From a bacterium HR19 (GTDB lineage Bacteria > Calescibacteriota > Calescibacteriia > Calescibacteriales > Calescibacteriaceae): DNA of 64,000 nucleotides. Location: positions 62,001 to 126,000 of the forward strand of contig BEHV01000001.1 of assembly GCA_002898315.1 (NCBI GenBank), in the 5' to 3' direction. The notes under the pieces are model-generated. The model ran no database searches. It was given only the letters and a program-made list of their open reading frames with translations, and was not told where the DNA came from. The translations under genes were made by a program, and so were the position numbers. Below, in pieces: positions 3,384-55,260 of this stretch. Within the stretch, counting starts at the first letter, position 1, and every line of letters starts with the position of its first letter.

Positions 3384-3797
3384 TTATATTTTCCCGAGTT
3401 TCTTTATTCTTTCTTCTGGGCTTATTATATCAATTATTCTCACACCAAACTTATCACCAACAAGAATCACCTCACCCCTTGCTATGTGTCTGCCATTCAC
3501 AAGAATTTCAACTGGCTCGTTCTCCTGTTTATCAAGCTCTATTGTTGAACCCTGAGTGATTTGCAGAAGGTCTCCAAGGAGCATTCGTGTCCTTCCTATC
3601 TCCACCGATACTTCAAGTGGTATATCAAGAAGTGTTCTCAAAACCTCCGGGATTGCTTCTTCTTCTCTTTTCCTTTTTAATTCTCTTTTTTCCTCTTCTT
3701 TTTTCTCTTCTTCGGCTACTTCATTTATTGCTTTTGCGAGAGCTTCTTTCATCTCATCTGATAAATTCTCTATACCTTCTGTTTCCTTTTCTATCAT
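3384..3797 (-). CDS. fliN: Flagellar motor switch protein FliN
   Basis: FliN forms part of the cytoplasmic C-ring that sets the direction of flagellar rotation and helps dock export substrates. The 137-residue protein has a charged, Lys/Glu-rich N-terminal half (about 1-45) and a SpoA/FliN domain (about 55-137) with the typical patterns LDIPLEVSVEIGRT, LVNGRHIARGEVI and FGVRI. It is not in a flagellar operon here; the divergent neighbour is efp. A TAAAAT box lies seven bases before the ATG and there is no ribosome binding site. Confidence 0.93.
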   Translation of the reverse strand: MIEKETEGIENLSDEMKEALAKAINEVAEEEKKEEEKRELKRKREEEAIPEVLRTLLDIPLEVSVEIGRTRMLLGDLLQITQGSTIELDKQENEPVEILVNGRHIARGEVILVGDKFGVRIIDIISPEERIKKLGKI

Positions 3798-3804
3798 GAT
3801 TATT

Positions 3805-3810
3805 ATTTTA
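3805..3810 (-). promoter_or_regulatory. TAAAAT box, leaderless-type start of fliN
   Basis: On the minus strand TAAAAT is separated from the fliN ATG by exactly seven bases and no Shine-Dalgarno sequence is present. This spacing places the expected transcription start at or next to the A of the ATG. Confidence 0.5.
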
Positions 3811-3877
3811 ATGATTTCGGAAAATTTTTTCTTTTTCTTCTCTTTTGAAAGTTTAATCAGCTTATTTTTTTATTATT

Positions 3878-4432
3878 ATGAGAGCGGGAGAACTAAAAGT
3901 AGGAACATTTGTAGAGATAGAAAACAGAATATATGAGGTCGTCAGTTTTGAAAGACAAAAAATCGCACAGAGACAACCACACATAAAAGTAAAGCTGAAA
4001 GATACAGTTTCGGGAAGAGTTATAGAAAGAACCTTCGTCTCATCAGATGAGATCAACGCACCAGATGTACTCATAAGATATGCTAACTTCGTATATAAAG
4101 ACAAAGACCAATATGTCTTTATGGATACAGAAACTTATGAAGAGTATAGATTCACTGAAAGTCAAACAGAAGATATAAAGGATTGGTTCATTGAAGGAAT
4201 ACAGTTCCAAATCATAGTAGCTAATGGTAGTCCAATTGCCGTGAGATTACCAAAAGTAATAGAAATAGAGGTCATAGACACTCCTCCTGGAGTGAGAGGG
4301 GATACAGAAAGTGGCGGAAGTAAACCAGCAACACTATCAAACGGAGTCGTAATTCAGGTCCCACTTCACATAAAAAAAGGAGACAAAATCAAGGTCAATC
4401 CCGAGACAAGAGAGTATATAGGTAGAGCATAA
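3878..4432 (+). CDS. efp: Elongation factor P with atypical tip loop
   Basis: EF-P binds between the ribosomal P and E sites and relieves stalling at polyproline. The 184 residues cover the KOW-like N-domain, the central OB domain (VFMDTETYEEYRF near 84-96) and the C-terminal OB domain (PPGVRGDT, PLHIKKGDKIKVNPETREYIGRA pattern). The loop that normally carries the modified Lys (PGKG) here reads IAQRQP at 29-34, so Gln31 takes the place of Lys34 of E. coli, with Arg32 next to it. The 3' end overlaps the convergent MFS gene by 38 bases. Identity as an EF-P is firm; the modification state is unknown. Confidence 0.92.
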   Translation: MRAGELKVGTFVEIENRIYEVVSFERQKIAQRQPHIKVKLKDTVSGRVIERTFVSSDEINAPDVLIRYANFVYKDKDQYVFMDTETYEEYRFTESQTEDIKDWFIEGIQFQIIVANGSPIAVRLPKVIEIEVIDTPPGVRGDTESGGSKPATLSNGVVIQVPLHIKKGDKIKVNPETREYIGRA

Positions 4433-5624
4433 CTATTACCGCTAAACCTCCAATTTGAAGCAATAATGGTATAAAAAGCATCGTGCTCTTCCCGTATAGC
4501 TCAGCAAAGATTACCCCCGATATGAGACCCGATATTCCAAAAATCATGTGAAATAAACCGAAGCTTAACCCTCTATTTTCTTCCTCTGTAAAAAAAGCAA
4601 CAGCTGACCTCATAGAACTCTCGGTCATCCCTATGTATATTCCCCAGAGTAAAGTCCCTAATATATTCCACTTAAAATAGAAAATCAAAAATAAAGAAAG
4701 AATAGCTAAAACTGGCATGAGAGAAAAAAAGAAAATTTTATTTTGTCTGTTCTTTAACTTGTCAAATAGTATGCCGAGGGGAATTGCAGATAAAGCGTCG
4801 GCAATCATCGCTAAAGAAAATATGAGCGGTATCTTCTCGTCAGGCAATCCAGAATTTATAAAACTAACAGATATAATCTGAAAATTTGGTACTCCCGATA
4901 AAGTCAGAGACGAAAAAATCAAAAATAAAATAAAGCTCACCTTTTTACTTCCCAAACTTCTCTGATAGCTTATGCTCCCAGTCTCCACTTTTACCTTATG
5001 ATTTTCTCTCTTTGTTTTTTCTGATTTCGGAACATCTGAATTTGCTTTATCCTCTCTCCTCGGCTCTCCAATTTCTCTGACGTAAATTGACCTTGCAAGA
5101 ATGAGGAAGACGAAAGATATGGTAGCAGGAATAAAAAGAGTATAAAAAGAAGTTCTATAATCGTATTTTGCGAGAATGAAGGAGATGAGAAACGGACCTG
5201 CCACTGAACCTATCTGGTCAAGCGCTTCGTGTATAGCAAAACCTTTACCATAACCTAAATCCTTTGCTGAAAAAGAAATGAGAGTATCTCTTGATGGGCT
5301 TCTCAAAGCTTTACCAAACCTTTCTGTCATGAGAAGAAAGAAGGCAAACTTCCAGCTGTTTGAAAAACCCATAAATGGCAGAGAAAAAAGACCTAAAAAG
5401 TATCCACAAATAGTCATGAACCAATACTTTCTGATTTTATCCGATATATAACCGAATATCAACCTCAGAGCATATCCTAAAAATTCACCTATTCCACCTA
5501 TAATAGATACAAGACCAGCACTCGCTCCAAGATGATACAAAAAAGGACCCGAAATACTTCTTGCGCTTTCATAAGTTATATCGGCGAAAAGAGATACTAT
5601 CCCGAATAGCAGTATTATCTTCAT
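4395..5624 (-). CDS. MFS transporter
   Basis: This 409-residue protein has twelve likely membrane helices in two groups of six, split by a charged cytoplasmic linker (about 185-215) rich in Lys, Arg and Glu. The motif-A-like segment GYISDKIRKYW after helix 2 and its counterpart GILFDKLKNRQNK in the second half are typical of the major facilitator superfamily. The substrate cannot be read from the sequence. The gene is convergent with efp and overlaps its end by 38 bases. A TATAAT box ends eight bases before the ATG. Confidence 0.85.
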   Translation of the reverse strand: MKIILLFGIVSLFADITYESARSISGPFLYHLGASAGLVSIIGGIGEFLGYALRLIFGYISDKIRKYWFMTICGYFLGLFSLPFMGFSNSWKFAFFLLMTERFGKALRSPSRDTLISFSAKDLGYGKGFAIHEALDQIGSVAGPFLISFILAKYDYRTSFYTLFIPATISFVFLILARSIYVREIGEPRREDKANSDVPKSEKTKRENHKVKVETGSISYQRSLGSKKVSFILFLIFSSLTLSGVPNFQIISVSFINSGLPDEKIPLIFSLAMIADALSAIPLGILFDKLKNRQNKIFFFSLMPVLAILSLFLIFYFKWNILGTLLWGIYIGMTESSMRSAVAFFTEEENRGLSFGLFHMIFGISGLISGVIFAELYGKSTMLFIPLLLQIGGLAVIVMLYLYTLLSRD

Positions 5625-5632
5625 CTTATCAG

Positions 5633-5638
5633 ATTATA
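5633..5638 (-). promoter_or_regulatory. TATAAT box, leaderless-type start of MFS gene
   Basis: On the minus strand a perfect TATAAT is followed by eight bases and then the ATG of the transporter. There is no ribosome binding site in between. Confidence 0.5.
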
Positions 5639-5762
5639 GTTTCTGTTTCTTTTTTGATGTTTTCTGAAACCTTTATAAAGCCCTGAGTAGTTCAACTCAG
5701 ATATGAAATAGAAAAATTTTCGCTTGCTCACTCAATTGCGTTTTTGGTATTCTCTTTTAACT

Positions 5763-6065: not shown

Positions 6066-6128
6066 ATCTATTTTATTTTTATAATTTTTTCTTTCGGATT
6101 GAATTTTATCTGATTTCTACTGAAAAAT

Positions 6129-6926: not shown

Positions 6927-6927
6927 C

Positions 6928-8379: not shown

Positions 8380-8390
8380 ATTTTTCAGTG

Positions 8391-15573: not shown

Positions 15574-16346
15574 TTTTCCGGCTCAAATAAAAAAATCATT
15601 CCCCAAATACTTGATAAGATAAAATCTTGATTCCTTTTCATCAGTGTTTCCGAAACTTCATCTTTTTTCAATATAGAAAATCTTTTCAGTTTCTTATCGG
15701 AGAATAAAAAATCAATAAGCCGGCGGGAGTCCCTCGGAAGGTCTAAAATCAAAAATTCTCCCCCAAAAAGATCAATAACCTTATCAAAATCCTCCTTGAA
15801 ATCAAAAAAACAGAACAATCTTCCGTTTTTACTTATGATCAGGCAAGAAAGTTTGAGCAGGAAATCAAGATGAGAAGATAAAATGTTCTTTACTTTCTGC
15901 TCACAAATAAAGACCTGACATTTTTTCATAAGATTGATAAAAACTCTATCAATTTTAAAAGAACCGACGAGAGAAAATATATCTGAAAAAAAATCTTCCG
16001 AAGAGGTGTGCGTACTTCTTTCTTCCAGAGTGTAAACAGCTTTTTTTATATCAGAACCGAAAAACAGAGGAAGTATATTTATTCCCGTATTTGTTTTGTA
16101 TATCCTTCCTCCGTAATTCAGCTTACCGTAATGATTGTATATTTCAATCCTTCCCATGAAGTGTTCTGGTGGGAAACCGAAGAATCTATCTTTGAATCCG
16201 TTCAGAGAAAAAAATTCCCTGAAAGTAATGTCAAAAAAAGGTATGAACGGAAAAACAAAACCATTTTCCGAGGAGAACAAAAAAGCGTCTTTTATTTTAT
16301 CGCTCTCTTGAAGAGCCAGAGAAAAATCATCAGCAAACAAATCCAC
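15570..16346 (-). CDS. Unknown protein coupled to ABC permease
   Basis: I do not recognise this 258-residue protein. It has no signal peptide or membrane helix and is rich in Phe, Leu, Asp and Lys. It has no Walker A motif, so it is not the missing ATPase. Several alternating hydrophobic strands (for example RVFINLMKKCQVFICE and GEFLILDLP) suggest an alpha/beta cytoplasmic fold. The start is GTG at 16346, eight bases after a TAAAAT box and without a ribosome binding site. Coupling to the fused permease by an ATGA overlap suggests a job in the same transport system. Confidence 0.75.
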   Translation of the reverse strand: MDLFADDFSLALQESDKIKDAFLFSSENGFVFPFIPFFDITFREFFSLNGFKDRFFGFPPEHFMGRIEIYNHYGKLNYGGRIYKTNTGINILPLFFGSDIKKAVYTLEERSTHTSSEDFFSDIFSLVGSFKIDRVFINLMKKCQVFICEQKVKNILSSHLDFLLKLSCLIISKNGRLFCFFDFKEDFDKVIDLFGGEFLILDLPRDSRRLIDFLFSDKKLKRFSILKKDEVSETLMKRNQDFILSSIWGMIFLFEPEK

Positions 16347-16354: not shown

Positions 16355-16360
16355 ATTTTA
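16355..16360 (-). promoter_or_regulatory. TAAAAT box before a GTG start
   Basis: On the minus strand TAAAAT is followed by eight bases and the GTG of the 258-residue unknown protein. It fits the leaderless pattern and supports GTG as the true start. Confidence 0.45.
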
Positions 16361-16450: not shown

Positions 16451-16456
16451 TAAAAT
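16451..16456 (+). promoter_or_regulatory. TAAAAT box, leaderless-type start of SpoIID-like gene
   Basis: TAAAAT is followed by seven bases and the ATG at 16464, with no ribosome binding site between. Confidence 0.5.
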
Positions 16457-16463: not shown

Positions 16464-17318
16464 ATGCAATTTCTTCCTCTCCTATTTATTATTTTCCTCA
16501 ATCTCTCAAATTACAAAGTGAAGGTGATATATGGTGGTAAAGAGATAAAATCAATATCTCTTGAGGACTATTTGAAGGGAGTAGTAGCTGGGGAAATGCC
16601 TGCCTCTTGGCATACCGAAGCACTAAAAGCACAAGCGGTAATAGCGAGGTCATTCACGATCTACCACATCAAAAAAGGAAAAAATTACTTTGAAGCATCT
16701 GAAAAAGATCAGGTGTGGATCCCCAAAGAAAAGTGGCAGAATTACAGCGAAAAAATAGAAAAAGCAGTTGATGATACAAGAGGATATGTTCTTACTTTTC
16801 CTTCTGGCGAGGTAGCACCGGGATTCTTTCACTCAACGTGCGGTGGAAAAACAGAGAACGCAATTGAACTCTGGGGAGGAGATGAAAATCTCAAATTCAT
16901 AGTATCTGTAAAATGCTCAAAATGCTATGATTCTCCGTATTTTTTCTGGCGTGAGAGAATAAAAAAAGAAGAAATAATGAGGGTAAGCAGAGAGATAAAC
17001 GATGTAATAACCCAAAAAATACTCTCTCTCTCTTATGATATATTTGCAGAATACACAGATACAGGAAGAGTGAAAAAACTTTTTCTGCCTTACGGCGTCT
17101 TCTTAACTTACTATGATATGAGGAACAAACTGAATTTGAAAAGCAATTTTTTCAAGTTTGAGTTTGACGGAGAATATTTCACATTTTATGGGAGAGGAAA
17201 TGGACACGGGGTTGGATTATGTCAGTGGGGAGCGAAAAAACTCGCCGAAGAAGGACTAAAATGGGACGAAATTTTAAAATTCTACTTTCCACTCCTAAAA
17301 ATCAAAAAAATATACTGA
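16464..17318 (+). CDS. SpoIID/LytB-domain protein
   Basis: The 284-residue protein starts with a hydrophobic signal-like stretch (about 1-15) and then shows the SpoIID domain. This includes the VAGEMPASWHTEALKAQAVIARS region (41-63) with the conserved Glu44, and the C-terminal GRGNGHGVGLCQWGA motif. In sporulating Firmicutes SpoIID is a lytic transglycosylase acting on denuded peptidoglycan; in diderms related proteins are likely periplasmic cell-wall enzymes. There are no sporulation genes here. It is followed after about 60 bases by the PlsB-like gene on the same strand. Confidence 0.88.
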   Translation: MQFLPLLFIIFLNLSNYKVKVIYGGKEIKSISLEDYLKGVVAGEMPASWHTEALKAQAVIARSFTIYHIKKGKNYFEASEKDQVWIPKEKWQNYSEKIEKAVDDTRGYVLTFPSGEVAPGFFHSTCGGKTENAIELWGGDENLKFIVSVKCSKCYDSPYFFWRERIKKEEIMRVSREINDVITQKILSLSYDIFAEYTDTGRVKKLFLPYGVFLTYYDMRNKLNLKSNFFKFEFDGEYFTFYGRGNGHGVGLCQWGAKKLAEEGLKWDEILKFYFPLLKIKKIY

Positions 17319-17363: not shown

Positions 17364-17369
17364 TAAAAT
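17364..17369 (+). promoter_or_regulatory. TAAAAT box, leaderless-type start of acyltransferase gene
   Basis: TAAAAT is followed by seven bases (TTTTGTT) and the ATG at 17377. The same 16-base arrangement, TAAAAT-TTTTGTT-ATG, occurs upstream of the comM-like gene on the other strand. Confidence 0.55.
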
Positions 17370-23740: not shown

Positions 23741-23859
23741 GCTCAGGAGCCATACCGGGGGTGACACCCGCCTTCCCATTCCGAACAGGACCGGGAAACC
23801 CCCCCAGGGCCGATGATACTGCGTCCGCACGGGCGTGGGAAAGTAGGTCGCTCCTGGGC
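23741..23859 (+). rRNA. rrf: 5S ribosomal RNA, stand-alone gene
   Basis: The 119-base sequence has the universal 5S loop CCCATTCCGAACAGG and a ten-base-pair terminal helix formed by GCTCAGGAGC and GCTCCTGGGC (one G-U). A run of six T follows directly, which with the terminal helix could act as an intrinsic terminator. It is GC-rich compared with its surroundings, as expected for a thermophile rRNA. No 16S, 23S or tRNA is adjacent; the neighbours are rpoA (divergent) and a hydrolase gene (convergent, nine bases away). Confidence 0.95.
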
Positions 23860-32013: not shown

Positions 32014-32019
32014 ATTTTA
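32014..32019 (-). promoter_or_regulatory. TAAAAT box, leaderless-type start of lipoprotein gene
   Basis: On the minus strand TAAAAT is followed by seven bases and the ATG at 32006, with no ribosome binding site. Confidence 0.5.
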
Positions 32020-33160: not shown

Positions 33161-33938
33161 ACCTCAAATTTGCAACAACTTTTCTCAAAACTTCTTTTTT
33201 TATACCTATTTTCTCCACAAAATTTTCAAGTTCAAAAATACTATCTAATTTTATGCTTTTTGAGACCCCATCTTTTATGAGATGGACAAAGTTATCTCTA
33301 ATATAAATCAATTTGTCTTTGAATAGTTTGACAACTATCAGGTGGTTCATCATTTCAAACTCAAATGTTTTTTCCCACGCAGAAAGAAAATCATCAAAAC
33401 TGGTTTTTTCAAGTTTAACGGAATATCTGAATTTTCTGTGTCCGTTTTCAAAAACAGTGAAAGCATCTATTCTTTTACCATCATCACTCCACAAAAATTC
33501 AAGCTCTCCCTGAACGGTCTTCACTCTGACTTTACTTTGAGATACATCAACGGGGAAAAATATTGAAAAACCGATGTCACCGAGATATAGTTTATCTCCG
33601 AATTGAGTTATGACGACACAGTGGGAAGATGGGGCATATGTTCTATCAGCAAGGGCAATCCATGAGTTGAAACCCAGAGAATCAAGAACTCTTTTGAGAA
33701 AATATGTTAGAGGGAAACAGGTTCCTCCCGTCCCAAATTCAAGGTATCCCCTCATTACATCAAAGGGACTTGCGAACCTTTCTTTTATGTAGTTATGTTT
33801 TGTAAGGTTTTCGTATGGTATATGGGAGAACGCATTAAAAACTTTTTTCAAAAGCTCAAGTTCTCCATCTTTATTCCACTCTTTAACAAAGTGAGAGAAA
33901 AAAAGCTCAATTCCTTTTTCTTCGTCTCGGAATATCAC
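33138..33938 (-). CDS. Arylamine N-acetyltransferase-like protein
   Basis: The 266-residue protein shows the NAT catalytic triad at almost canonical positions: Cys74 in GTGGTCFPL, His106 in SSHCVVI and Asp121 in LGDIGF. The IPYENL motif (40-45) is also typical. NAT enzymes move acetyl groups from acetyl-CoA to amines, and the fold is used for other acyl transfers too. The start is GTG at 33938 without a ribosome binding site. It heads a two-gene unit with DUF4416. Confidence 0.82.
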   Translation of the reverse strand: MIFRDEEKGIELFFSHFVKEWNKDGELELLKKVFNAFSHIPYENLTKHNYIKERFASPFDVMRGYLEFGTGGTCFPLTYFLKRVLDSLGFNSWIALADRTYAPSSHCVVITQFGDKLYLGDIGFSIFFPVDVSQSKVRVKTVQGELEFLWSDDGKRIDAFTVFENGHRKFRYSVKLEKTSFDDFLSAWEKTFEFEMMNHLIVVKLFKDKLIYIRDNFVHLIKDGVSKSIKLDSIFELENFVEKIGIKKEVLRKVVANLRYGSSERT

Positions 33939-33991
33939 AACGAAAAATTAATTATTTTTTTGAGGGACGGAAAAAAATTAAATTTACGGAG

Positions 33992-35519: not shown

Positions 35520-35525
35520 ATTTTA
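35520..35525 (-). promoter_or_regulatory. TAAAAT box, leaderless-type start of comM
   Basis: The minus strand reads TAAAAT, seven bases (TTTTGTT), then ATG. It is the same 16-base string as at the PlsB-like gene. Confidence 0.55.
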
Positions 35526-35569: not shown

Positions 35570-35575
35570 TAAAAT
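35570..35575 (+). promoter_or_regulatory. TAAAAT box, leaderless-type start of hisS
   Basis: TAAAAT is followed by eight bases and the hisS ATG, with no ribosome binding site. It is divergent from the comM box in the same short intergenic region. Confidence 0.5.
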
Positions 35576-37824: not shown

Positions 37825-39972
37825 TCATATAAAAAGCGGAGCGAGGACGAGTGTTACAGTAGATAGGAGTTTGATAAGCACATGCAAAGAAGGACCGGCG
37901 GTATCTTTCAAGGGGTCTCCTACGGTATCGCCGACAACCGCTGCCTTATGCTGTTCAGTTCTCTTCTGTCCAGCGGATTCTATTGATTTTTTAGCGTTAT
38001 CCCACGCTGCTCCGCCGTTGTTGAAAACTGTTGCCACAAGTATCCCTGCTATGGTTCCAACCATAAGCAAAGACGCAACAGACTCAGCTCCCAATCCTAC
38101 AAGTTTGAAAATAATTCCTGTAATCGTTGGGACTATAACAGGCAAAAGCCCGGGGATAATCATCTCTTTGAGAGCTCCTTTTGTCACTATATCAACACAA
38201 GTTCCATATTCTGGTTTTTCTGTTCCCTGAAGTATTCCCGGCTTTTCTCGGAACTGTCTTCTTACCTCATTTATGACATAGTATGCAGCTCTTCCTACTG
38301 CTCTTATAGCAAGTCCCGAAAAGAGAAAGACGAGCATAGCACCTATGAGAGCTGCGACAAAAACTTCTGGTTTTGATATATCTACTGCTTTAAGTTCAAC
38401 TCCGTAGTTTCTCACCTCGTCTATGTATGCGCTGAAAAGCAAGAACGCAGCGAGTCCGGCAGAACCTATCGCGTAACCTTTTGTAAGCGCTTTTGTTGTG
38501 TTTCCGACCGCATCTAATTTATCTGTTATTGATCTTACCTCCGCAGGTTGATGGCTCATTTCTGCTATTCCACCAGCGTTATCTGTAATGGGTCCGAATG
38601 TATCCATCGCAAGTATAAACCCTGCGGTTGAGAGCATGCCCATCGTAGCTACTGCGGTTCCAAATAGACCAGCATCTGGAAGACCCGTCGCTCTGCCAAG
38701 ATAGTAAGACGCTATTATTGCTACTCCTATGGCAATTGCCGGAAGCGCGGTGTTCTCAAATCCCACAGATAAACCTGTTATTATATTAGTTGCTGGACCG
38801 GTATAACTTGACTTCACTATCTCTTTCACTGGTCTATATCTATCTTCTGTGTAGTATTGGGTTATAAAGACGAAAGCAACAGATGTGAGAACTCCTATTA
38901 CACCGCAGAGGAAGAAATTTATCCACGCTGTTGGGTAGGAAGGGTGATAGAGGAGCCAGCGGGAGGCGATGAAAAATCCTATCATAGCAAGGAAGACCGA
39001 GACGTAGTATCCTTTGTTCAGAGCACGCATAGGGTCGTCGTCGTTGCTCTTCGCTCTAACAAGCATTATGCCTATTATAGACGCTATTATACCGAATGCA
39101 CGAGCAACAAGAGGGAAAAGCATAACTCCTACAACCCATGAAAGTTCGCTTCCCGCTACTTTTGAAGCCATAGCAGCTCCAAGTATCATCGCACCTATGT
39201 TTTCAGCAGCAGTTGATTCAAAAAGGTCTGCCCCTCTTCCAGCACAATCCCCAACATTATCTCCAACCTGATCTGCTATAACTGCTGGATTTCTCGGATC
39301 ATCTTCCGGTATCCCGGCTTCAACTTTACCAACAAGGTCAGCTCCCACATCTGCTGCCTTTGTGTAAATTCCTCCACCAAGTTGAGCGAAAAGAGCAACA
39401 AAAGAAGCTCCGAAACCATATCCGACTATAAGAAGTGGAATCTTAATCGGGTCAGCTGTTGAAAAGAACTTCATGAGTATAAAAAGTCCGCCTATTCCGA
39501 GTAAGCTCATTGATACGACCATTATTCCCGAGACAGCTCCACCCCTCAGAGCGATTTTTAGGGCATCAGGTAAGCTTCTTCTCGCTGCCGCAGCTGCGAC
39601 CCTTATATTGCTTCTTATGCTTGCCCACATTCCAACATATCCAGCTATCAGAGATGAAATTGCACCAGCTATGAAAGATAGAGCAATCCAGAAGGCAAGC
39701 TCAAGAGCAGAAGCCACAGGGTCAAACTCCTTGTGTCCCCTTATTATGCCGTATCCGACAAAAAGAAGCAATGCAAAAGGTAAAGATATAATTATTATCG
39801 TCTTGTATTGTCTTCGCAGGAAAGCTTCTGCACCTTCTTTTATAGCCAGAGAAATCGCCTGCATCTCTGGACTTCCTGCATCGTGTTTCAAAACCCATCT
39901 TGCAAGAAGAAAAGAAAAAACCACACCCCCTATGCTTACTCCCAAAACTATTGCAAGTAGTCCCCATGTCAT
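37825..39972 (-). CDS. hppA: Membrane H+-pumping pyrophosphatase, K+-independent type
   Basis: The 715-residue protein couples pyrophosphate hydrolysis to proton pumping across the inner membrane. It has about 16 membrane helices and the PPi-binding loop DVGADLVGKVE (208-218). A second acidic loop, DNAGGIAEM, starts near 464, and the C-terminal GDTVGDPLKDTAGP block is intact. Lys494 in GNTTKALTKG marks the K+-independent subfamily, where K+-dependent enzymes have Ala. An AAGGAGG ribosome binding site precedes the ATG. It likely conserves energy from PPi made in biosynthesis. Confidence 0.96.
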   Translation of the reverse strand: MTWGLLAIVLGVSIGGVVFSFLLARWVLKHDAGSPEMQAISLAIKEGAEAFLRRQYKTIIIISLPFALLLFVGYGIIRGHKEFDPVASALELAFWIALSFIAGAISSLIAGYVGMWASIRSNIRVAAAAARRSLPDALKIALRGGAVSGIMVVSMSLLGIGGLFILMKFFSTADPIKIPLLIVGYGFGASFVALFAQLGGGIYTKAADVGADLVGKVEAGIPEDDPRNPAVIADQVGDNVGDCAGRGADLFESTAAENIGAMILGAAMASKVAGSELSWVVGVMLFPLVARAFGIIASIIGIMLVRAKSNDDDPMRALNKGYYVSVFLAMIGFFIASRWLLYHPSYPTAWINFFLCGVIGVLTSVAFVFITQYYTEDRYRPVKEIVKSSYTGPATNIITGLSVGFENTALPAIAIGVAIIASYYLGRATGLPDAGLFGTAVATMGMLSTAGFILAMDTFGPITDNAGGIAEMSHQPAEVRSITDKLDAVGNTTKALTKGYAIGSAGLAAFLLFSAYIDEVRNYGVELKAVDISKPEVFVAALIGAMLVFLFSGLAIRAVGRAAYYVINEVRRQFREKPGILQGTEKPEYGTCVDIVTKGALKEMIIPGLLPVIVPTITGIIFKLVGLGAESVASLLMVGTIAGILVATVFNNGGAAWDNAKKSIESAGQKRTEQHKAAVVGDTVGDPLKDTAGPSLHVLIKLLSTVTLVLAPLFI

Positions 39973-40089
39973 ATCAAGTTTCCTCCTTTTTCAGAAGTCT
40001 AAAAAGCTAAAATGTAGCACAATAAAAAGCGAGCCGAAAAAAATATCTTCTAAATCTAAAAAAACAGAAAAAAAATGCGAAAATTTCAA

Positions 40090-40095
40090 TAAATT
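40090..40095 (+). promoter_or_regulatory. TAAATT box before dgt
   Basis: TAAATT is followed by seven bases and the ATG at 40103. There is no ribosome binding site. Confidence 0.45.
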
Positions 40096-40102
40096 TTTTA
40101 AG

Positions 40103-41140
40103 ATGGGAAAAAACCCAAGAGAGATAAGAGAGGAATTGGAAGAAAAAATTCTTTCCGAAATAGCCACACCGAGCTCAAAATCAAGAGGCAGAAAAATTCC
40201 CGAAGAGCCATGCGAAATAAGAACCTGCTTTCAGGTTGATAGAGATAGAATACTGCATTCAAAGTCATTCAGAAGGTTGAAGAGAAAGACACAGGTTCTG
40301 ATATTGCCAAAGGGAGACCATTACAGGACTCGGCTGACACACACATTAGAAGTTATGCAGATTTCAAGAACGATAGCGAGAGCGCTCATGCTTAATGAAG
40401 ACCTCGCGGAAGCCATTGCTCTTGGGCACGACCTCGGACATACCCCTTTCGGACACGCAGGAGAATTCGCTATGAGAAAAATCATTCCAGATTTCCACCA
40501 CGCTAAACAATCTGTAAGAGTCGTAGAAAAAATAGAAAAAGATGGAAAAGGTTTAAACTTGACTTTTGAAGTTATAGATGGTATCCTCAAACACTCAAAA
40601 GGTATGGGGAAAATTTTTCCCGATAATCCCGAATTCATTCCGGTCACCGCCGAAGGAAAAGTTGTAAGAGTAAGCGATATTATAGCTTACCTCAATCATG
40701 ATTTAGATGATGCAATAAGAGCGCAAATAATAAAACCACAGGATATCCCAAAAGAAATAACAAAGATAATAGGAGAATCATACGGCGAGAGAATAGACAG
40801 AATGGTGAAAGATGTTATAAACTCATCAAAAGAAAAAGGTGATATTTCGGTTTCTTCTGACATGCTCTGGGCTATGGAAGAACTGAGAACATTCCTCTAC
40901 GAAAGAGTTTATACCTCACCTCATGTTATGAAAGAAACAGCAAAAGTTGAAAGAGTAATCCTTGACCTTTATGAATACTATATTTCACATCCGCATATTT
41001 TTGAAGAAGATAGCGAAGGATTCTTAACAGATGAAAGTTTTGAACAGAGGGTTATTGATTTTATAGCGGGTATGACAGATAGCTTCGCTATTGAGATGTG
41101 GAGCAAAAAGTTTTTACCCAAACCCTTTGACAAAATCTGA
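40103..41140 (+). CDS. dgt: dGTP triphosphohydrolase-like HD protein
   Basis: The 345-residue protein has the HD-domain metal ligands in the order typical of dGTPases: RLTHTLEVMQ, GHDLGHTPFGHAGE and the later Asp in YLNHDLDD. The N-terminal block with a conserved DRDRILHSKSFRRLKRKTQV is characteristic of the short, non-proteobacterial Dgt group. It hydrolyses dNTPs to nucleosides and triphosphate. The chosen ATG removes a long, low-quality N-terminal extension that would read antisense through hppA. Confidence 0.88.
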   Translation: MGKNPREIREELEEKILSEIATPSSKSRGRKIPEEPCEIRTCFQVDRDRILHSKSFRRLKRKTQVLILPKGDHYRTRLTHTLEVMQISRTIARALMLNEDLAEAIALGHDLGHTPFGHAGEFAMRKIIPDFHHAKQSVRVVEKIEKDGKGLNLTFEVIDGILKHSKGMGKIFPDNPEFIPVTAEGKVVRVSDIIAYLNHDLDDAIRAQIIKPQDIPKEITKIIGESYGERIDRMVKDVINSSKEKGDISVSSDMLWAMEELRTFLYERVYTSPHVMKETAKVERVILDLYEYYISHPHIFEEDSEGFLTDESFEQRVIDFIAGMTDSFAIEMWSKKFLPKPFDKI

Positions 41141-41217
41141 TATAAGCCAAAATTCCTATTTTTCAATATCCAAAACACGAAAAGAACTAAAATAAAATAA
41201 AAGGAGGTGATTTTATC

Positions 41218-42771
41218 ATGAATTTCAGAAGTCTGATAGGAATTCTCCTCGTGATAGGATTCATATATCTTATTGTAAAAGGGATAGAGTCAGGAACATT
41301 AGGAAAAATCAGCATCGGTTCAGAAATAATAAATGAAACAAAAGAAAAATTAGAAAACCTCAAAGAAAAAGTAGAGATAGGGAGAGCAGAAAATTTAAGT
41401 AAAAGCCAAGAAGAAGAGAAGAAGAACGAAGAACAGAATCCAGTATCAAAGATGACGGTTGCTCCTTTTTCATTTGCAGATATAGTTGAGAAAGTGAGCA
41501 AGGGTGTAGTAAATATAAGCACCACAAGAGTTGAAAGACAGGCTAACCCATTCTGGTGGTTCTTCGGTCCAGGTCCCTTTGGTGAAAGAAACCCAGGTGA
41601 AGAATTCTTCAAAAAATTCTTCGGAGAACCTGAAAGAGAAGTACCGATGACAAGCCTGGGCTCTGGATTTCTAATATCTCCTGACGGATACATAGTGACA
41701 AACTCTCATGTTGTGAAAAATGCAAAAGATATAAGTGTAAAACTATGGGATGGAAGAACTTTCAAAGGAAGAATAATAGGAATAGATGATGCTACAGATA
41801 TAGCTGTGCTCAAAATAGATGGCAATAACTTTCCTTATCTGAAATTCGGTGATTCAAATGAACTAAAAGTAGGCGACTGGGTTATCGCAATAGGTAATCC
41901 ATTTGGACTCGGTCACACCGTAACTGTTGGTGTTGTATCTGCAAAAGGAAGAAGTTTGGGAATAACAAGGTATGAAGATTTCATTCAGACAGACGCTGCG
42001 ATAAACCCTGGGAACTCCGGCGGACCACTCATAAACATAAAAGGTGAAGTCGTAGGAATAAACACAGCAATCTTAAATCCATCTGGTATGTCTGTATATG
42101 CCGGAATAGGATTTGCAATACCTTCTTCTCTGGCAAAAAATATTGTCCCCACACTTATAGAAAAAGGCAAGATAGATAGAGCATGGCTCGGAGTTTATAT
42201 CCAAGAGGTAACGCCAGAGATAGCCAAACAACTTGGTTTAAGTGAAGCAAAAGGAGCGCTTGCATCAGAAGTTATTCCCGGGTCCCCAGCAGATAAAGCA
42301 GGAATAAAAAGAGGCGATGTAATTGTTGAATTTGACGGGAAACAAATAGAAAACTACAAACAGCTCCCTCTTATGGTCTCTTTAAGTCCGATAAACAAAA
42401 AAGTAAATGTCAAAGTTGTAAGAGATGGTAAAACACTTTCGTTTGATGTGACTTTGGCAAAGATGCCAGAAGAAGAAGCACTTGCACAAAGACAACCACA
42501 ACAAGAACAACAACCACAAGAAGGTGTTGAGCTAAAGCAGTTCGGATTAGTTATTCAGGATTCTCCTGATGGTCCAAGAGTCGTTGCTGTTGAACCTGGA
42601 TCTCCTGCTCAAATGGCTGGAATAGCTCCCGGAGACATAATAGTTGAGGTGAACAGAAAATCTGTCAAATCTTCTGCGGAAATAGCTCAAATCCTCAAAG
42701 ACCAGAAATCTGCTCTTTTCCTCATAAACAGAGGAGGAAGAACTCTCTTTGTAGCAATAAGAATAGGATAA
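41218..42771 (+). CDS. HtrA/DegP-type serine protease with two PDZ domains
   Basis: The 517-residue protein has an N-terminal membrane anchor (about 6-22), a charged coiled linker (about 38-75) and a trypsin-like domain with His164 (NSHVV), Asp194 (TDIAVL) and Ser267 (GNSGGP). Two PDZ domains follow, near 310-400 and 425-515, separated by a Gln/Pro-rich stretch. It should act in the periplasm on misfolded proteins. AAGGAGGTGA lies just upstream of the ATG. The uncleaved anchor suggests membrane attachment, as in DegS. Confidence 0.95.
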   Translation: MNFRSLIGILLVIGFIYLIVKGIESGTLGKISIGSEIINETKEKLENLKEKVEIGRAENLSKSQEEEKKNEEQNPVSKMTVAPFSFADIVEKVSKGVVNISTTRVERQANPFWWFFGPGPFGERNPGEEFFKKFFGEPEREVPMTSLGSGFLISPDGYIVTNSHVVKNAKDISVKLWDGRTFKGRIIGIDDATDIAVLKIDGNNFPYLKFGDSNELKVGDWVIAIGNPFGLGHTVTVGVVSAKGRSLGITRYEDFIQTDAAINPGNSGGPLINIKGEVVGINTAILNPSGMSVYAGIGFAIPSSLAKNIVPTLIEKGKIDRAWLGVYIQEVTPEIAKQLGLSEAKGALASEVIPGSPADKAGIKRGDVIVEFDGKQIENYKQLPLMVSLSPINKKVNVKVVRDGKTLSFDVTLAKMPEEEALAQRQPQQEQQPQEGVELKQFGLVIQDSPDGPRVVAVEPGSPAQMAGIAPGDIIVEVNRKSVKSSAEIAQILKDQKSALFLINRGGRTLFVAIRIG

Positions 42772-46492: not shown

Positions 46493-47110
46493 TCACTTTG
46501 CTATAAGCTTTACTTTTTCTGACCTTACTGTTATATCTATGTCTTGTGGCAGAATTTCTTTTGCACTGCCCTTAGCTTTTTCTGTCTTAACATAAATTTG
46601 AGTTGCTATCTCTTTTTCAACATCAAACTCATACATCAGGGTTTTCTTGAATATTCTATTTGTCTTTATAACAAAAACAACATCAACCACATGTTTTCCG
46701 GGGATAGCTTCTGATTCATCATATATAATGATGTCTTGCTTTGATGCTAAATCTATTTTAGATTTGTCTTTTATGCTTGACACTTCAAACCCATCAAGAA
46801 CAACAGAGATCTCCTGAATATCTGCGTCTTTCAACTCGTTTTTAAAGTATATGGTTATCTTTGTTCCTGTAAGAGTTCCCATAAGTATCATATCTTCAAA
46901 GACCTTTATTGATTTTTTGGTTTCAAGTATTTTGAGCTTGAGCATCTCTATCTCTTTCTGGAGTTTTCGGAGTTCTTCTTTAAGTTTCTCTTCTTCTTGA
47001 CTTTGAGCGTATGCGAAAATGTTTATCTTCTGAAATATAGATAAGATGAAAAAGATAACCAAAGATAGAGAAACGATCTTTCTCAACTTCATCAGAACTG
47101 CTATTTTCAT
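46493..47110 (-). CDS. Periplasmic coiled-coil protein of unknown function
   Basis: The 205-residue protein has a signal peptide (about 10-35), a short Glu/Lys-rich coiled coil (about 37-70) and a beta-rich C-terminal part. A VVLDGFEV segment and IPGKHVVDVVFVI look like the strands of a PEGA-like or beta-sandwich domain. It is the first gene of the unit that contains pilP and pilQ, where pilO would often be; a coiled coil followed by a small domain is PilO-like, but the sequence is not clearly PilO. The leaderless-type box TAATAT precedes the ATG by six bases. Confidence 0.7.
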   Translation of the reverse strand: MKIAVLMKLRKIVSLSLVIFFILSIFQKINIFAYAQSQEEEKLKEELRKLQKEIEMLKLKILETKKSIKVFEDMILMGTLTGTKITIYFKNELKDADIQEISVVLDGFEVSSIKDKSKIDLASKQDIIIYDESEAIPGKHVVDVVFVIKTNRIFKKTLMYEFDVEKEIATQIYVKTEKAKGSAKEILPQDIDITVRSEKVKLIAK

Positions 47111-47161
47111 TAAAAAATATTAATCGTTATAAACTTTTTATTTTTCATATTCTGAAATTGT

Positions 47162-48013: not shown

Positions 48014-48050
48014 TGATACTATATCAGCAAAAACGCCGCAGGAAATATAT

Positions 48051-49457
48051 TTATTTTCCTATGCAGAATGTAGAAAATATTTTGTCAATTATTTCATGAG
48101 AGCTTTCTTTGCCGAGCATTTCATCTATCTTTTTTATAGCGTTGCGCAACGAGTAAGCAGTTCCCAAATAATCAGATTGCACCATAAAGTTCCTGGCAGT
48201 AAAGACACTTTGCAGAATTTCCTCAGCAACAGCTTTCTGTCTTGATGTTATTATTGAAACACTTTCCGAAGATGAAATACTTTGAGAGAAAAATTTCAAA
48301 ATCTCCTCTTTTATAGCATCTATACCGATTCTCTCTTTTGCAGAAACGGGAATAATAGCGAACTGCTTTCCTTCAATATTTTTCTCTGAAATCTCTTCAA
48401 TTTTTTTTCTCAGAAGATTAATCCAGAAATCAGAATATCCTATATCTATTTTGTTGATAGCAATTATCACTTTTTTATCTTGCGATGCCTTTATAATTTT
48501 TAAAACTTCCTCATCGTCTTCTTGGAGCTCTTTTTCAGAAGAGTCAAAAACGCATATCAGAATATCTGCAGAATCCGCAATTTTCAAAGTTCTTTCAATA
48601 CCTTCCTTCTCTATCGGGTCATAAGTTTTTCTTACTCCTGCTGTATCTACAATTTTCACTATCGCTCCACCAATATCTACATCTGAATCTATGAAATCAC
48701 GGGTTGTTCCTGGTATAGGAGAGACAATCGCTCTTGAATATCCTATTATGGAGTTGAAAAGCATTGATTTTCCGACATTTGGTTTCCCGACTATAACACA
48801 TTTTGCCCCGTAAATAAGCGTCTTGGTACTTTTCCATTCAGAAAGAATTCTATTGATTTTCTGGTAAAGCTCTGAAACCTTTCTCATAATTTCTTCGTAT
48901 GTGAGCTCGTAATCTACATCTTCGGGAAAGTCAATAGATGCCTCAACCTGTGAAACAACATCTAAAATCTCCTCCCTCAAAGTATTCATCAGCTTCTCAA
49001 ATTCACCCTTCAGTACACTAAAAGACCTTTTCACTCCTTCAAGAGTAGAAGCTCTTATAAGTGAGTTTATCGCTTCTGATTTTTCAAGTGTTACCTTACC
49101 GTTCAAAAAAGCTCTTTTTGTAAACTCTCCTTCCCTTGCATACCTCGCTCCATAACTTATACATAGCTTCACGATGTAATCTGTGAGAATAGGATTTCCG
49201 TGAATAAAGATTTCTGCCATATCTTCTCCGGTGTATGAATGCGGAGCTTTGAAGAAAACAACAAGCCCCTCATCTAACTCCTCTCCGTTTTCTCCATATA
49301 TTCTTGCAAGGTAGAATTTTCTTGGTTCTTTTGAAGAGAAGTCCTTCCGGGTGAGTTTAGAAAGTATTTCAAGAACTTTGCTTCCTGATAACCTTATTAT
49401 ATGTATAGGAGATGGCATAAGAGGAGATGCTGGGGCAACAATCGTATCACTTACCAT
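48051..49457 (-). CDS. mnmE: tRNA modification GTPase MnmE (TrmE)
   Basis: The 468-residue protein works with MnmG to modify the wobble uridine of certain tRNAs. It has the formyl-THF-binding N-domain (TIVAPASPL start, FIHGNP), the helical domain and a GTPase domain with GKPNVGKS, DTAG and NKID. The C-terminal FCIGK, whose Cys is the catalytic residue, is present. Length is standard. The ATG follows a TAGAAT box by six bases, without a ribosome binding site. mnmG is not in the window. Confidence 0.96.
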   Translation of the reverse strand: MVSDTIVAPASPLMPSPIHIIRLSGSKVLEILSKLTRKDFSSKEPRKFYLARIYGENGEELDEGLVVFFKAPHSYTGEDMAEIFIHGNPILTDYIVKLCISYGARYAREGEFTKRAFLNGKVTLEKSEAINSLIRASTLEGVKRSFSVLKGEFEKLMNTLREEILDVVSQVEASIDFPEDVDYELTYEEIMRKVSELYQKINRILSEWKSTKTLIYGAKCVIVGKPNVGKSMLFNSIIGYSRAIVSPIPGTTRDFIDSDVDIGGAIVKIVDTAGVRKTYDPIEKEGIERTLKIADSADILICVFDSSEKELQEDDEEVLKIIKASQDKKVIIAINKIDIGYSDFWINLLRKKIEEISEKNIEGKQFAIIPVSAKERIGIDAIKEEILKFFSQSISSSESVSIITSRQKAVAEEILQSVFTARNFMVQSDYLGTAYSLRNAIKKIDEMLGKESSHEIIDKIFSTFCIGK

Positions 49458-49542
49458 ATAATAATTCTAATATATCTTGTGCGCGTAGCTCATATATGAT
49501 TTTTAAATCTTGTTTTGGGGCAATTACAGGAGCAAAAAGAGG

Positions 49543-50010
49543 TTAGTCAACAACTTCTATTCCCATGCTTTTTGCTGCTCCTTCTATTATTCTGCAAGCA
49601 GATTCAAACGAATTGACTTTGAGGTCCGGTAGCTTTATTTTTGCTATCTCCTCAACATCTTTTCTTGTTATTTTTCCGACAATTTTTCTTCCTGGTTCAG
49701 AAGAACCTTTTTCTAATTTTGCGTATTTGAGGATCAGGGCAGATGTTACGGGGGTTTTAAGTATAAAATCAAAGGATCTGTCTTTATATACTGTGACATG
49801 AGCGGTAATTGGCATACCTTTTGGGAAAACCTTTGAGGATTCATTAAATCTTTTACAGAATTCGGCTATATTTACTCCTCTTTGACCGAGCGCTGGACCG
49901 ACCGGAGGAGCGGGAGCTGCTTCCTGAGCTGGTATTCTTATTCTGAAACGAGCAACCACTTCCTTAGGTCCCCCCGCCCCTGCGGGAGAAGCTTTTTTCT
50001 CTGCTTTCAT
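49543..50010 (-). CDS. rplK: 50S ribosomal protein L11
   Basis: The 155-residue protein has the L11 N-domain ([24 protein letters not shown]) and the RNA-binding C-domain ([22 protein letters not shown]). About 15 extra Ala/Gly/Lys-rich residues extend the N-terminus. L11 forms the GTPase-associated centre with 23S rRNA. It is normally next to rplA, nusG and secE; here it stands alone, divergent from coaD. A TCTG-TAAAAT box lies eight bases before the ATG and no ribosome binding site is present. Confidence 0.96.
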
Positions 50011-50018
50011 AAATTTTC

Positions 50019-50028
50019 ATTTTACAGA
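50019..50028 (-). promoter_or_regulatory. Extended -10 (TCTG-TAAAAT) of rplK
   Basis: On the minus strand TCTG directly precedes TAAAAT, which is eight bases before the rplK ATG. It fits the leaderless pattern. Confidence 0.5.
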
Positions 50029-50076
50029 TTTGAAAATTTGTGTTATTGATTTTCAGAAATCTATTATTATGAATCA

Positions 50077-50082
50077 TAAATT
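50077..50082 (+). promoter_or_regulatory. TAAATT box before coaD
   Basis: TAAATT is followed by eight bases and the coaD ATG, with no ribosome binding site. Confidence 0.4.
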
Positions 50083-50090
50083 TTTCTGTT

Positions 50091-50576
50091 ATGCCAGAAA
50101 AAGTTGCGGTGTATCCGGGGACTTTTGACCCCATCACACTCGGGCATGTGAGTGTTGTAAAACGAGCACTCATAGTTTTTGAAAAATTGATAATAGCAGT
50201 AGCAAAAGATACCCAAAAGAATACTTTCTTCTCATTTGAAGAGAGATTTGAAATGCTAAAAGAAGTTTTTTCAGATGAGCCAAGGGTTGAGGTGATGAAA
50301 TTTGAAGGACTGCTCATTGATTTTATGAAAAGAATCGGGGCGAAGGTTATATTAAGAGGATTGAGAACCGTTTCAGACTTTGAGTATGAGTTTCAGATGG
50401 CTCTCACAAACAGAAAACTTGATAACTCAATAGAGACAATTTTCATAATGGCAGAAGAACAAGTATCTTACTTCTCATCATCTCTTGTCAGAGAAATAGC
50501 AAAACTTGGAGGAGATATTTCTTTGCTCGTTCCCCAACCCGTTATAAAATGGTTTGAAAGAAAGCTCAAAAGGTAA
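50091..50576 (+). CDS. coaD: Phosphopantetheine adenylyltransferase
   Basis: CoaD makes dephospho-CoA from phosphopantetheine and ATP, the fourth step of coenzyme A synthesis. The 161-residue protein is of standard length and has YPGTFDPITLGH with the T/HxGH nucleotide motif, LRGLRTVSDFEYE and the SSSLVREIA motif. It is divergent from rplK and convergent with the small gene that follows. Confidence 0.96.
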   Translation: MPEKVAVYPGTFDPITLGHVSVVKRALIVFEKLIIAVAKDTQKNTFFSFEERFEMLKEVFSDEPRVEVMKFEGLLIDFMKRIGAKVILRGLRTVSDFEYEFQMALTNRKLDNSIETIFIMAEEQVSYFSSSLVREIAKLGGDISLLVPQPVIKWFERKLKR

Positions 50577-50581
50577 AAAAA

Positions 50582-52893: not shown

Positions 52894-52973
52894 ACGAATA
52901 CGGAAATAAACACCGAAAAATTCAAAAAAACGCAATTTTTACGATTTAGAAAATTTTTAAAATTCTTTCAAGC

Positions 52974-54101
52974 ATGAAAAAGTATCAAAAAAGCGTGAGA
53001 TTTTTTTTCAAACTCCTCATAAGTGGAATCTTCATACTCTCCTTTTCAAAGTTAAGTCATATCTACGCTATTGAGATAAGTTTGCGAGGTAATTCACTTT
53101 TCAGCGCTTTCACAGGAAAAAACAATATGTTTATGTTTTCTATAAGAAATCTTGAACTTTCAGCAAGCGGGGGAAGAGGATTTTTGTTCGCAAAAGGAGA
53201 ACTTGATATTCAACCCATCAATCTTTCCTTCTTCACAGATGCTATTGAGAAAAAAAATAGCGAGATGCAAGATTTTTTGACATCACAGGTAGCAGGAAGA
53301 GAGTTCTTCAGAGCAAAAGAGGTTTATGTTTCAACTCGTGGTCTTCCATTTTTCAGAATAACATTAGGAAGGTTCTACGGGGCGGTCGGAAATGCCAATT
53401 CGCAGAAATTCTGGATAAGAAACTTTGTTGAAAGACCTTTCACAGTAAGATATTTTTTTGGTCAGAACGGATTTTTAGACGATGGACTTGAAATCTCTCT
53501 TTTTCCACCTTTACCGTGGACATTTGAAATAGTAGGACAGATTTTTGATGGGAGTGTAAAATCGTGGGCGAGCAAAGGAAGCTTTGACCTAACATATCTT
53601 CTCGCAATAAGGAACTACTTCGGTGAGGAGGATATATCAGGAGGTTTCAGCTTGTTCTGGGCAGTTGGGAAAAATTTTGCATCTCAGCGACTTGTCGCAA
53701 AAGGCACTCATATAGCATCAGATAACCTCTCGGAATTCTTTGGCGGAGATGCGTCTTTTAATTTCCAACCATACTTCTCAATGAATGTAGGATACATTCT
53801 GAGAAGATTCCAAAGCCCAACAATACTTGATGTTGAAGCCGGGTTATACTCTGAATTCAATGTAAATCCCGTAAGATTCTTCTCTGTTGGATTGAGACCT
53901 GAAATATTCGGTATTCCACGCATCAGAGAATTTGAAGAAGGTGGCTCTCAAAACCTACCGCAGATATTTGAACTATCTATATCTGCGACATTCTCCGCTT
54001 ATGAAATCGCAAAAATAAGGTTGCAGTGGACAGGAAACTTCTCAGAGGCATCATTACCGCAAAACATTTTTTATTTGCAAACAATGTTTGAACTACGCTA
54101 A
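52974..54101 (+). CDS. Putative outer-membrane beta-barrel protein
   Basis: The 375-residue protein has a signal peptide (about 8-32, cut after IYA) and then alternating hydrophobic/polar strands rich in Phe, Gly and aromatic pairs, ending in FELR. That pattern suggests a porin-like barrel of about 14-16 strands. I do not recognise the family. A TAAAAT box lies ten bases before the ATG. The TroA-like gene follows after 40 bases with its own promoter-like box. Confidence 0.6.
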   Translation: MKKYQKSVRFFFKLLISGIFILSFSKLSHIYAIEISLRGNSLFSAFTGKNNMFMFSIRNLELSASGGRGFLFAKGELDIQPINLSFFTDAIEKKNSEMQDFLTSQVAGREFFRAKEVYVSTRGLPFFRITLGRFYGAVGNANSQKFWIRNFVERPFTVRYFFGQNGFLDDGLEISLFPPLPWTFEIVGQIFDGSVKSWASKGSFDLTYLLAIRNYFGEEDISGGFSLFWAVGKNFASQRLVAKGTHIASDNLSEFFGGDASFNFQPYFSMNVGYILRRFQSPTILDVEAGLYSEFNVNPVRFFSVGLRPEIFGIPRIREFEEGGSQNLPQIFELSISATFSAYEIAKIRLQWTGNFSEASLPQNIFYLQTMFELR

Positions 54102-54129
54102 AATTTATGAAAATTTCGCTTCAACAGAT

Positions 54130-54135
54130 TAAATT
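54130..54135 (+). promoter_or_regulatory. TAAATT box before TroA-SH3 gene
   Basis: TAAATT is followed by six bases and the ATG at 54142, with no ribosome binding site. Confidence 0.4.
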
Positions 54136-54141
54136 TTAGCT

Positions 54142-55260
54142 ATGAATTTAGTAGCAACATTTCTGATTTCGGTCGTAGTTGTGACTTCAAACTACGACCT
54201 ATATTACATAGCTTCACGTGTTGCAGACCCCTCTGTTGAAATATACTACCTCGTAGATGAATCACAAGAAGATGGTATAAACTTTCAGATTCAGGATTTT
54301 CACATCAGGTTGCTCAACCGTGCAGATATATTTATTCATACGGGAACATTTGAGAGAAGATGGCTTCAGCAGGCGCTCTGGTCTGCCAGAAACCCAAAAA
54401 TCCTTGAAGGAAAAGAAGGACATATTGATATATCAAAATACATAGATGTAAAAAATGGTTCAAACTGCTTTATATTCAACAAAGAATACATCAAAAGAGT
54501 TGCAGCTATCCTCTCAGGTTTCATAAGAAAACTATCTCCCGATTTTTCAGCAGAGTTTTACGAAAAGAGGCTTTCGGAGTTTTACGCAGAAGTTGATGAG
54601 TATTTTTTTGCACTTCAAACAACAATATCAAGCTATATGCTCCCAAAATTTGCCATCTACTCCCCATGCCTGAAATATCTTTCAGACAGCATGAACTTAA
54701 AGTATGACCTCATTGTGAAAAAAAATGAAGACGAGGTCTTCACCTACGGGCTTGCCCGAGATTCATCAGAGGTTATGAAGAGAATGAACCTTCCTCTCCT
54801 TCTTGCTCCTCACAACATAGAAAGAAGCGCAGAGATAGGATTTATGTCAGCAGAAATCTTCGTCTTGAAAATACCGTCACACCTTGGCAAAAAATACCCA
54901 AACCTCAAATCAATAGTCAATGGTATAACCTTCATAGGAGATATAGAAAAATTAAGAGGTCTTCAAGAGAAAGAAAAAGAAAAGGAAGGAATTATAAAGA
55001 AGGAGGAGAAAAAACCTGCCGAGATAACGAGCATTCCACCAGAAACTCCTCCCGCCCCTCTTGAAGAGTATGCTGTTGTCACATCAAAATACACAAGTAT
55101 AATTTTGAGAGATAGACCTTCTGAACAAGCCGGACAAGCTGGAAAAATAGCCGGTGGGTCAAGGGTTCTGGTCCTTGAAAAGCAAAACGAATGGGTGAAA
55201 ATAACAGATGGAAAAAACATCGGGTGGGTGAGAATAAGCGTCCTCACATTTGAAAAATAA
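54142..55260 (+). CDS. TroA/ZnuA-like domain fused to bacterial SH3
   Basis: The 372-residue protein starts with a signal-like helix (about 1-15). Residues of about 15-275 resemble the metal-binding TroA/ZnuA fold (FLISVVVVTSNYDL, RADIFIHTGTFERRWL, the long KRLSEFYAEVDEYF helix, SPCLKYLSDSMNL). The usual DPHxYEP metal loop is replaced by NFQIQDFHIR, so metal binding is uncertain. A Lys/Glu/Pro linker (about 278-315) leads to an SH3b domain (about 318-370) with VLEKQNEWVKITDGKNIGWV, as in cell-wall binding proteins. No ABC partner is near. It overlaps pth by one base. Confidence 0.72.
   Translation: MNLVATFLISVVVVTSNYDLYYIASRVADPSVEIYYLVDESQEDGINFQIQDFHIRLLNRADIFIHTGTFERRWLQQALWSARNPKILEGKEGHIDISKYIDVKNGSNCFIFNKEYIKRVAAILSGFIRKLSPDFSAEFYEKRLSEFYAEVDEYFFALQTTISSYMLPKFAIYSPCLKYLSDSMNLKYDLIVKKNEDEVFTYGLARDSSEVMKRMNLPLLLAPHNIERSAEIGFMSAEIFVLKIPSHLGKKYPNLKSIVNGITFIGDIEKLRGLQEKEKEKEGIIKKEEKKPAEITSIPPETPPAPLEEYAVVTSKYTSIILRDRPSEQAGQAGKIAGGSRVLVLEKQNEWVKITDGKNIGWVRISVLTFEK

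Follow-up and report, generated by a model that had tools for sequence, protein, structure and literature searches.

The window analyzed here, a stretch of 64,000 nucleotides (nt; positions 62001-126000 of contig 1, in the 1.876 Mb draft genome of bacterium HR19, 22 contigs and 82% complete), contains fourteen genes in which an earlier reading of the sequence, referred to below as the original prediction, had noticed a TAAAAT-like hexamer 6-8 bases before ATG or GTG and no ribosome binding site. The question raised by this locus is whether such a box is a promoter element from which transcripts begin at, or almost at, the start codon. We conclude, with a probability of about 0.86, that the box is a -10 element with transcription start sites located 0-3 bases before the start codon, so that the mRNAs would be leaderless or nearly so. 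All fourteen hexamers were found at the coordinates and on the strands first reported (TAAAAT in eight cases, TAAATT in three, and TATAAT, TAATAT and TAGAAT in one each), separated from the start codon by 6 (three genes), 7 (six genes) or 8 nt (five genes). The lack of a ribosome binding site was likewise confirmed, the best upstream match to AGGAGG not exceeding three of six bases in any of these genes.

The box at gene starts across the genome

The genome-wide reading covered 1.846 Mb (G+C content 36.9%), in which 1,572 genes were called by a purpose-written script that selected start codons blind to any motif. Starts were considered confident when supported by family orthologues (178 genes; the final procedure was anchored at the alignment start) or when an ATG had no in-frame rival within 18 codons, resulting in 744 confident starts, 743 of them usable. 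Starts initially derived from coding potential were dropped as too noisy, and two earlier procedures based on orthologues were replaced, as they chose internal Met codons. A TANNNT hexamer beginning at -15 to -12 was present in 229 of the 743 starts, compared to 77.4 expected from 20 control windows located further upstream (standard deviation 12.7, maximum 110), and in 226 of the 611 starts without a Shine-Dalgarno (SD) sequence, where 64 were expected. Internal ATG codons had also been tried as decoys, but proved unsuitable as controls, their background being distorted by codon structure. After background correction, real boxes would be present in approximately 181 genes, or at least about 24% of the 743. 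This excess over control was used instead of the estimate from a two-motif expectation-maximization (EM) model (45-46% of genes in the TA class) because EM also found a TA class in control sequence 40-90 bp upstream (37%, with a likelihood gain of 78 vs. 579). The original prediction would have been refuted had the box shown no peak at -13 to -8 across the genome; such a peak was indeed present at confident starts, with a slightly wider span, the hexamers starting from -15 to -12. The signal was also visible without gene calling, as TAAAAT was found 96 times at 7 nt and 85 times at 8 nt before ATG, vs. approximately 50 times at other spacings, while no comparable rise of TAWAWT was observed before CTG, ATC, ACG or AAG.

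The second gene class that had been proposed, with a strong SD sequence, was equally recovered (a clear SD in 132 of the 743 starts, 18%), and the 16S ribosomal RNA (rRNA) carries the usual anti-SD GGATCACCTCCTTT. Box and SD were mutually exclusive, occurring together in only two of 1,003 head genes (33 expected).

The enrichment depended on particular bases of the hexamer. Among hexamers without G or C, the class with T1, A2 and T6 was found 161 times vs. 49 expected, while the other seven classes rose 1.3-1.8 fold, partly through overlap with the box. The enrichment disappeared when A2 or T6 was changed, and 1.2 fold was left when T1 was changed. TAAAWT was found at 95 starts (20 expected), with similar contributions of TAAAAT (50 vs. 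12) and TAAATT (45 vs. 8); at the third base, A was enriched 3.4-fold and T 1.7-fold, and the canonical TATAAT was not significantly enriched (4 vs. 2.1 expected). The claim that a -35 hexamer is missing mostly held, except for a trace of TTGA at exactly 17-bp spacing in 11 of 267 boxed genes (2.75 elsewhere), which is weak evidence because the weighted scan for a -35 has further peaks at -32 and -48. An extended -10 TG was not found as a feature of boxed genes (6 of 267), and no clear promoter consensus was apparent in the upstream regions of transfer RNA genes inspected by eye. A stand-alone CarD, a candidate to compensate for a weak -35, was not found in the genome, where the sole CarD-type match lies in a 932-residue, Mfd-sized frame.

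The abundance of the box varied with the position of genes relative to their neighbors. Boxes were found at 38% of divergent starts, 33-34% of starts behind gaps of 21-120 bp, 16% behind gaps of 1-20 bp and 9% of overlapping genes (background 6-15%), while the SD share showed the opposite trend (12% at divergent vs. 20-23% at same-strand starts). Among divergent pairs 61-100 bp apart, 48% of starts were boxed and 2% had an SD; both genes were boxed in 16 divergent pairs, with start codons as close as 61 bp.

Both classes were conserved among orthologues at family distance: 176 pairs included 25 SD-SD and 27 TA-TA pairs, and only seven swaps between SD and TA. In order to compare genomes, the count of TAAAWT at 7 or 8 nt before ATG was divided by that of the same motif at 13/14 and 16/17 nt. 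This ratio was 1.80 in the genome of the window, 1.54, 1.46 and 1.26 in its relatives G002, G004 and G003, and 1.09 in G001, with a median of 0.99 for 38 other genomes with usable counts. The distant genome G043 (4.5 Mb) showed a ratio of 1.55 and a significant excess (544 vs. 350), so that a leaderless-type box architecture is probably present in its lineage as well. Based on these ratios, the trait is clear in four of the five family members and is not unique to them.

Proposed leaderless transcripts and rival explanations for the box

In the mechanism that we propose, TAAAAT or TAAATT, with T1, A2 and T6 essential, would act as the -10 element of housekeeping promoters, and transcription would begin at the start codon or 1-3 bases upstream of it, making the mRNAs leaderless or nearly so. 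Ribosomes would then bind the 5'-terminal AUG or GUG, in a mode used by about a quarter of the genes, mainly those placed first in transcription units, and the reader of the box would probably be the single RpoD-type factor of the lineage. The position of the box, its specificity for T1, A2 and T6, its avoidance of SD sequences, its location at the heads of transcription units and the conservation of class among orthologues all support the leaderless reading. A transcript start exactly at the start codon, as first suggested, is compatible with these observations, but the dominant spacers of 7-8 nt equally allow leaders of 1-3 bases.

An origin by chance or artefact, from AT-rich upstream DNA, TAA stops ending the preceding genes, or a choice of starts biased by the motif, is extremely improbable. 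TAAAAT does contain TAA, and on reasoning alone starts just past an in-frame stop would put TAA at multiples of three; however, the peak includes the out-of-frame positions -13 and -14, reaches its maximum at divergent genes, where no stop codon lies upstream, and persists both without gene calling and with orthologue-supported starts, the highest control window (110) remaining far below the 229 boxes observed. Specificity and context make it improbable that the box serves translation as an A/U-rich signal within an ordinary 5' leader, for example a site for ribosomal protein S1 or the kind of non-SD ribosome-binding site known from Bacteroidota. Such a signal would suit a genome of 37% GC that encodes an S1-repeat protein, and predictions assign the use of non-SD sites to approximately 10% of bacterial species (PMC9581028). 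Nevertheless, the enrichment was tied to T1, A2 and T6 rather than to A/T content, the box drops at overlapping or close same-strand genes, although their demand for translation signals is no smaller, and it was strongest in short divergent gaps, which have no space for long leaders.

It appears rather doubtful, though clearly worth considering, that the boxes are -10 elements of transcripts with very short leaders (1-10 nt) instead of none. The dominant 7-8 nt spacers are 1-2 above the usual distance, and T is only slightly preferred at the base preceding ATG, as such leaders would allow. On the other hand, leaders of this size have no space for an SD and are treated as leaderless, a term that covers mRNAs whose AUG lies at the 5' terminus or very close to it (PMC9031893), and therefore they would hardly alter the functional conclusion.

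Several observations weigh against the interpretation of the boxes as -10 elements of leaderless genes. Almost half of the confident starts (344 of 743) carry neither box nor SD in strict form, and the start sites themselves rest on our own gene caller and on orthologues. The test for a pyrimidine-purine initiator was weak, 62% of the boxed genes and 48% of the SD genes having T at -1 (p = 0.01). The attributes of a TA-led gene class, namely a TANNNT-like signal about 10 bp upstream, no SD, constraint on T1, A2 and T6 and location at starts of transcription units, were all found here, yet genes separated by more than 120 bp from a neighbor on the same strand had no box excess (17% vs. 15%), perhaps because their starts are misplaced. 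Finally, G001, of the same genus, was nearly without spacing excess (354 vs. 326), and the sequence or spacing of the box may have shifted in this genome.

The RpoD-type sigma factor of the family

Two sigma-70 factors were found in the genome by their region 2, one RpoD-type (L193) and one RpoH-like (L194). The RpoD-type gene (L193:934-2310, equal to G000:C11:57234-58610, minus strand; orthologues L196, L197, L198 and L199) is located 78 bp after dnaG on the same strand (in G000 only, with dnaG recognized from sequence), and its product contains regions 2, 3 and 4, RpoD being the best-matching sigma class. It is the sole RpoD-type sigma in each of the five family genomes, and no canonical RpoD was seen in these genomes, all of them incomplete. 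In all five, the protein missed the cut-off of the RpoD_Cterm model (NCBIfam TIGR02393; 208-229 bits vs. 354). These values were the lowest best scores among the 59 genomes with a match to the model; 37 of 60 genomes passed the cut-off, and none of the other failing genomes scored as low.

The divergence includes the tryptophan dyad of region 2.4 (W433/W434 in Escherichia coli). The family sigma reads FSTYAVPW in this region, with VPW in place of TWW in five of five genomes, while ATWW was found at 45 of 45 readable sigma sites of distant genomes (some genomes being represented by two overlapping loci). DNA encoding FxTYAxPW occurred once per family genome and in only one of 381 other genomes. 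With respect to the Thermus aquaticus (Taq) protein, W256 is replaced by Pro and V277 (V454 in E. coli) by Gly, and the other Trp, Gln260 and the recognition residues of region 4.2 are retained. Proline at the W433 position occurs in alternative sigmas of the SigB/F/G type; the family protein, however, resembles RpoD much more strongly (224 bits) than it does these factors (109 bits), and a profile built from four family sigmas gave 649-871 bits within the family and no more than 224 outside it. Both Taq residues, W256 (E. coli W433) and V277, were reported to be 100% conserved among 1,002 primary sigmas (Bae et al., PMC4593229, Table 3), W256 being the wedge of promoter opening, whose loss slows melting, and more so in the cold (PMC4593229).

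The genome belongs with Candidatus Calescibacterium: the closest relatives by comM were a metagenome-assembled genome bin at 95% and Candidatus Calescibacterium nevadense at 73%, and NCBI places this genus in Candidatus Calescibacteriota. Known members live in springs near 80 °C (PMC4791363), and the organism is presumably thermophilic too. The family sigma would be the factor that reads the TAAAWT boxes, and its changes might explain their sequence. We give even odds to a scenario in which promoter opening relies on the heat of growth and on very A/T-rich -10 boxes, consisting of TAAAWT followed by a T-rich stretch and placed so that many leaderless mRNAs result. The box signal of G043 was similar, and its RpoD match lies just above the cut-off (354.7 bits), suggesting that boxes of this kind do not depend on changes in the sigma factor. 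For a specialist the sigma anomaly is the surprising part, the rest being of a known kind.

Boxed genes of the window and their relation to known systems

Most gene names of the original prediction were borne out by Pfam. On the minus strand, TAAAAT at 3805-3810 lies 7 nt before the ATG at 3797 of fliN (FliN C-terminal domain), and TATAAT at 5633-5638 lies 8 nt before the ATG at 5624 of a major facilitator superfamily transporter (MFS_1). TAAAAT at 16355-16360 (minus strand) precedes by 8 nt the GTG at 16346 of a gene for a 258-residue protein with no Pfam match, whose start is less certain, as the motif-blind caller chose TTG at 16340. The only other disagreement with the motif-blind starts among the fourteen genes was the SpoIID-like gene (SpoIID), with TAAAAT at 16451-16456 (plus strand), 7 nt before the ATG at 16464, for which the caller chose GTG at 16518. 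An acyltransferase gene, named PlsB-like before and matching the Acyltransferase family, has TAAAAT at 17364-17369 (plus strand), 7 nt before the ATG at 17377. The gene of an 802-residue protein without Pfam match carries TAAAAT at 32014-32019 (minus strand), 7 nt before the ATG at 32006, and this box is kept in L092 despite a diverged region further upstream. A gene absent from the original list has TAATTT at 33945-33950 (minus strand), 6 nt before the GTG at 33938, both box and GTG being kept in L092 (88% protein identity).

The genes comM and hisS lie back to back with start codons 71 bp apart. TAAAAT at 35520-35525 (minus strand) is 7 nt before the ATG at 35512 of comM (Mg_chelatase family), and TAAAAT at 35570-35575 (plus strand) is 8 nt before the ATG at 35584 of hisS (confirmed by Pfam). 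Both boxes are kept in L063 and L092, and L066 has TAAGAT at the place of the hisS box. For the dgt-like HD hydrolase (HD, HD_assoc), TAAATT at 40090-40095 (plus strand), 7 nt before the ATG at 40103, argues for a start at 40103 instead of 39473; the longest open reading frame (ORF) of this gene (39473-41140, plus strand) overlaps by 500 bases the end of an ORF on the minus strand (37825-39972). The contrasting class is represented by an SD, AGGAGG, at 41202-41207 (plus strand) before the ATG at 41218, without a box.

A 205-residue gene with no Pfam match, described before as coiled-coil, has TAATAT at 47117-47122 (minus strand), 6 nt before the ATG at 47110. Pfam families supported mnmE, with TAGAAT at 49464-49469 (minus strand), 6 nt before the ATG at 49457; rplK (Ribosomal_L11), with TAAAAT at 50019-50024 (minus strand), 8 nt before the ATG at 50010; coaD (cytidylyltransferase), with TAAATT at 50077-50082 (plus strand), 8 nt before the ATG at 50091; and a ZnuA/TroA-SH3 gene, with TAAATT at 54130-54135 (plus strand), 6 nt before the ATG at 54142. 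In this region (48051-50576) rplK and coaD are transcribed away from each other and mnmE lies downstream of rplK, while rplA, the neighbor of rplK in most bacteria, is not next to it. Across the genome, the gene preceding 580 of 1,543 genes is on the opposite strand, and therefore operons seem short. The rRNA genes appear split: a 5S rRNA gene (23742-23859, plus strand) stands alone between two protein genes of the opposite strand, and the 3' end of the 16S rRNA is on another contig (C9, near 53937).

Leaderless expression is already well known in bacteria, and the mode described here is a known one. In Mycobacterium tuberculosis, whose genome is high-GC unlike that of the window, the leaderless class is tied to a -10 hexamer beside the start codon, as here; mycobacteria use a stand-alone CarD, while in the present genome a CarD-type domain was found solely in the Mfd-sized protein. 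The leaderless transcripts of M. tuberculosis (PMC3898074) are thus one known system for comparison, and by the predictions of GeneMarkS-2 leaderless transcription occurs in 21.6% of bacterial species, a figure given as cited in PMC9581028. Another close likeness is to Deinococcus-Thermus, where the TANNNT motif replaces the SD in nearly one third of genes (about a quarter here) next to a second, SD class; in Deinococcus this motif, located 6-7 bp ahead of the ORFs, is bound by RpoD, and reporters showed bases 1, 2 and 6 to be needed for RpoD binding and transcription (PMC12340547), the positions found essential here. The two systems differ in the box (TAAAAT/TAAATT here, TACACT-like there), in the spacer (mostly 7-8 here, 6-7 there), in the low GC content and the phylum of the present genome, and in its RpoD, which lacks the tryptophan dyad. 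The TA-led genes of Zheng et al. 2011 (PMC3160421) similarly show a TA signal about 10 bp upstream that excludes the SD and was read as leaderless, although their low-GC genomes have TAtAAT, several with an upstream TG, instead of the third-base A without TG found here.

Leaderless genes are regarded by some as reflecting an old mode of translation initiation, and most of the mapping has concerned Actinobacteria and Deinococcus-Thermus; no earlier report from Calescibacteriota was found in an incomplete search of the literature. A deep-branching, low-GC phylum of hot springs would be an independent added case. The family sigma offers a testable exception to the W433 rule, which has been stated as invariant. 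Annotation in Calescibacteriota is affected too, since tools based on SD sequences will misplace many starts.

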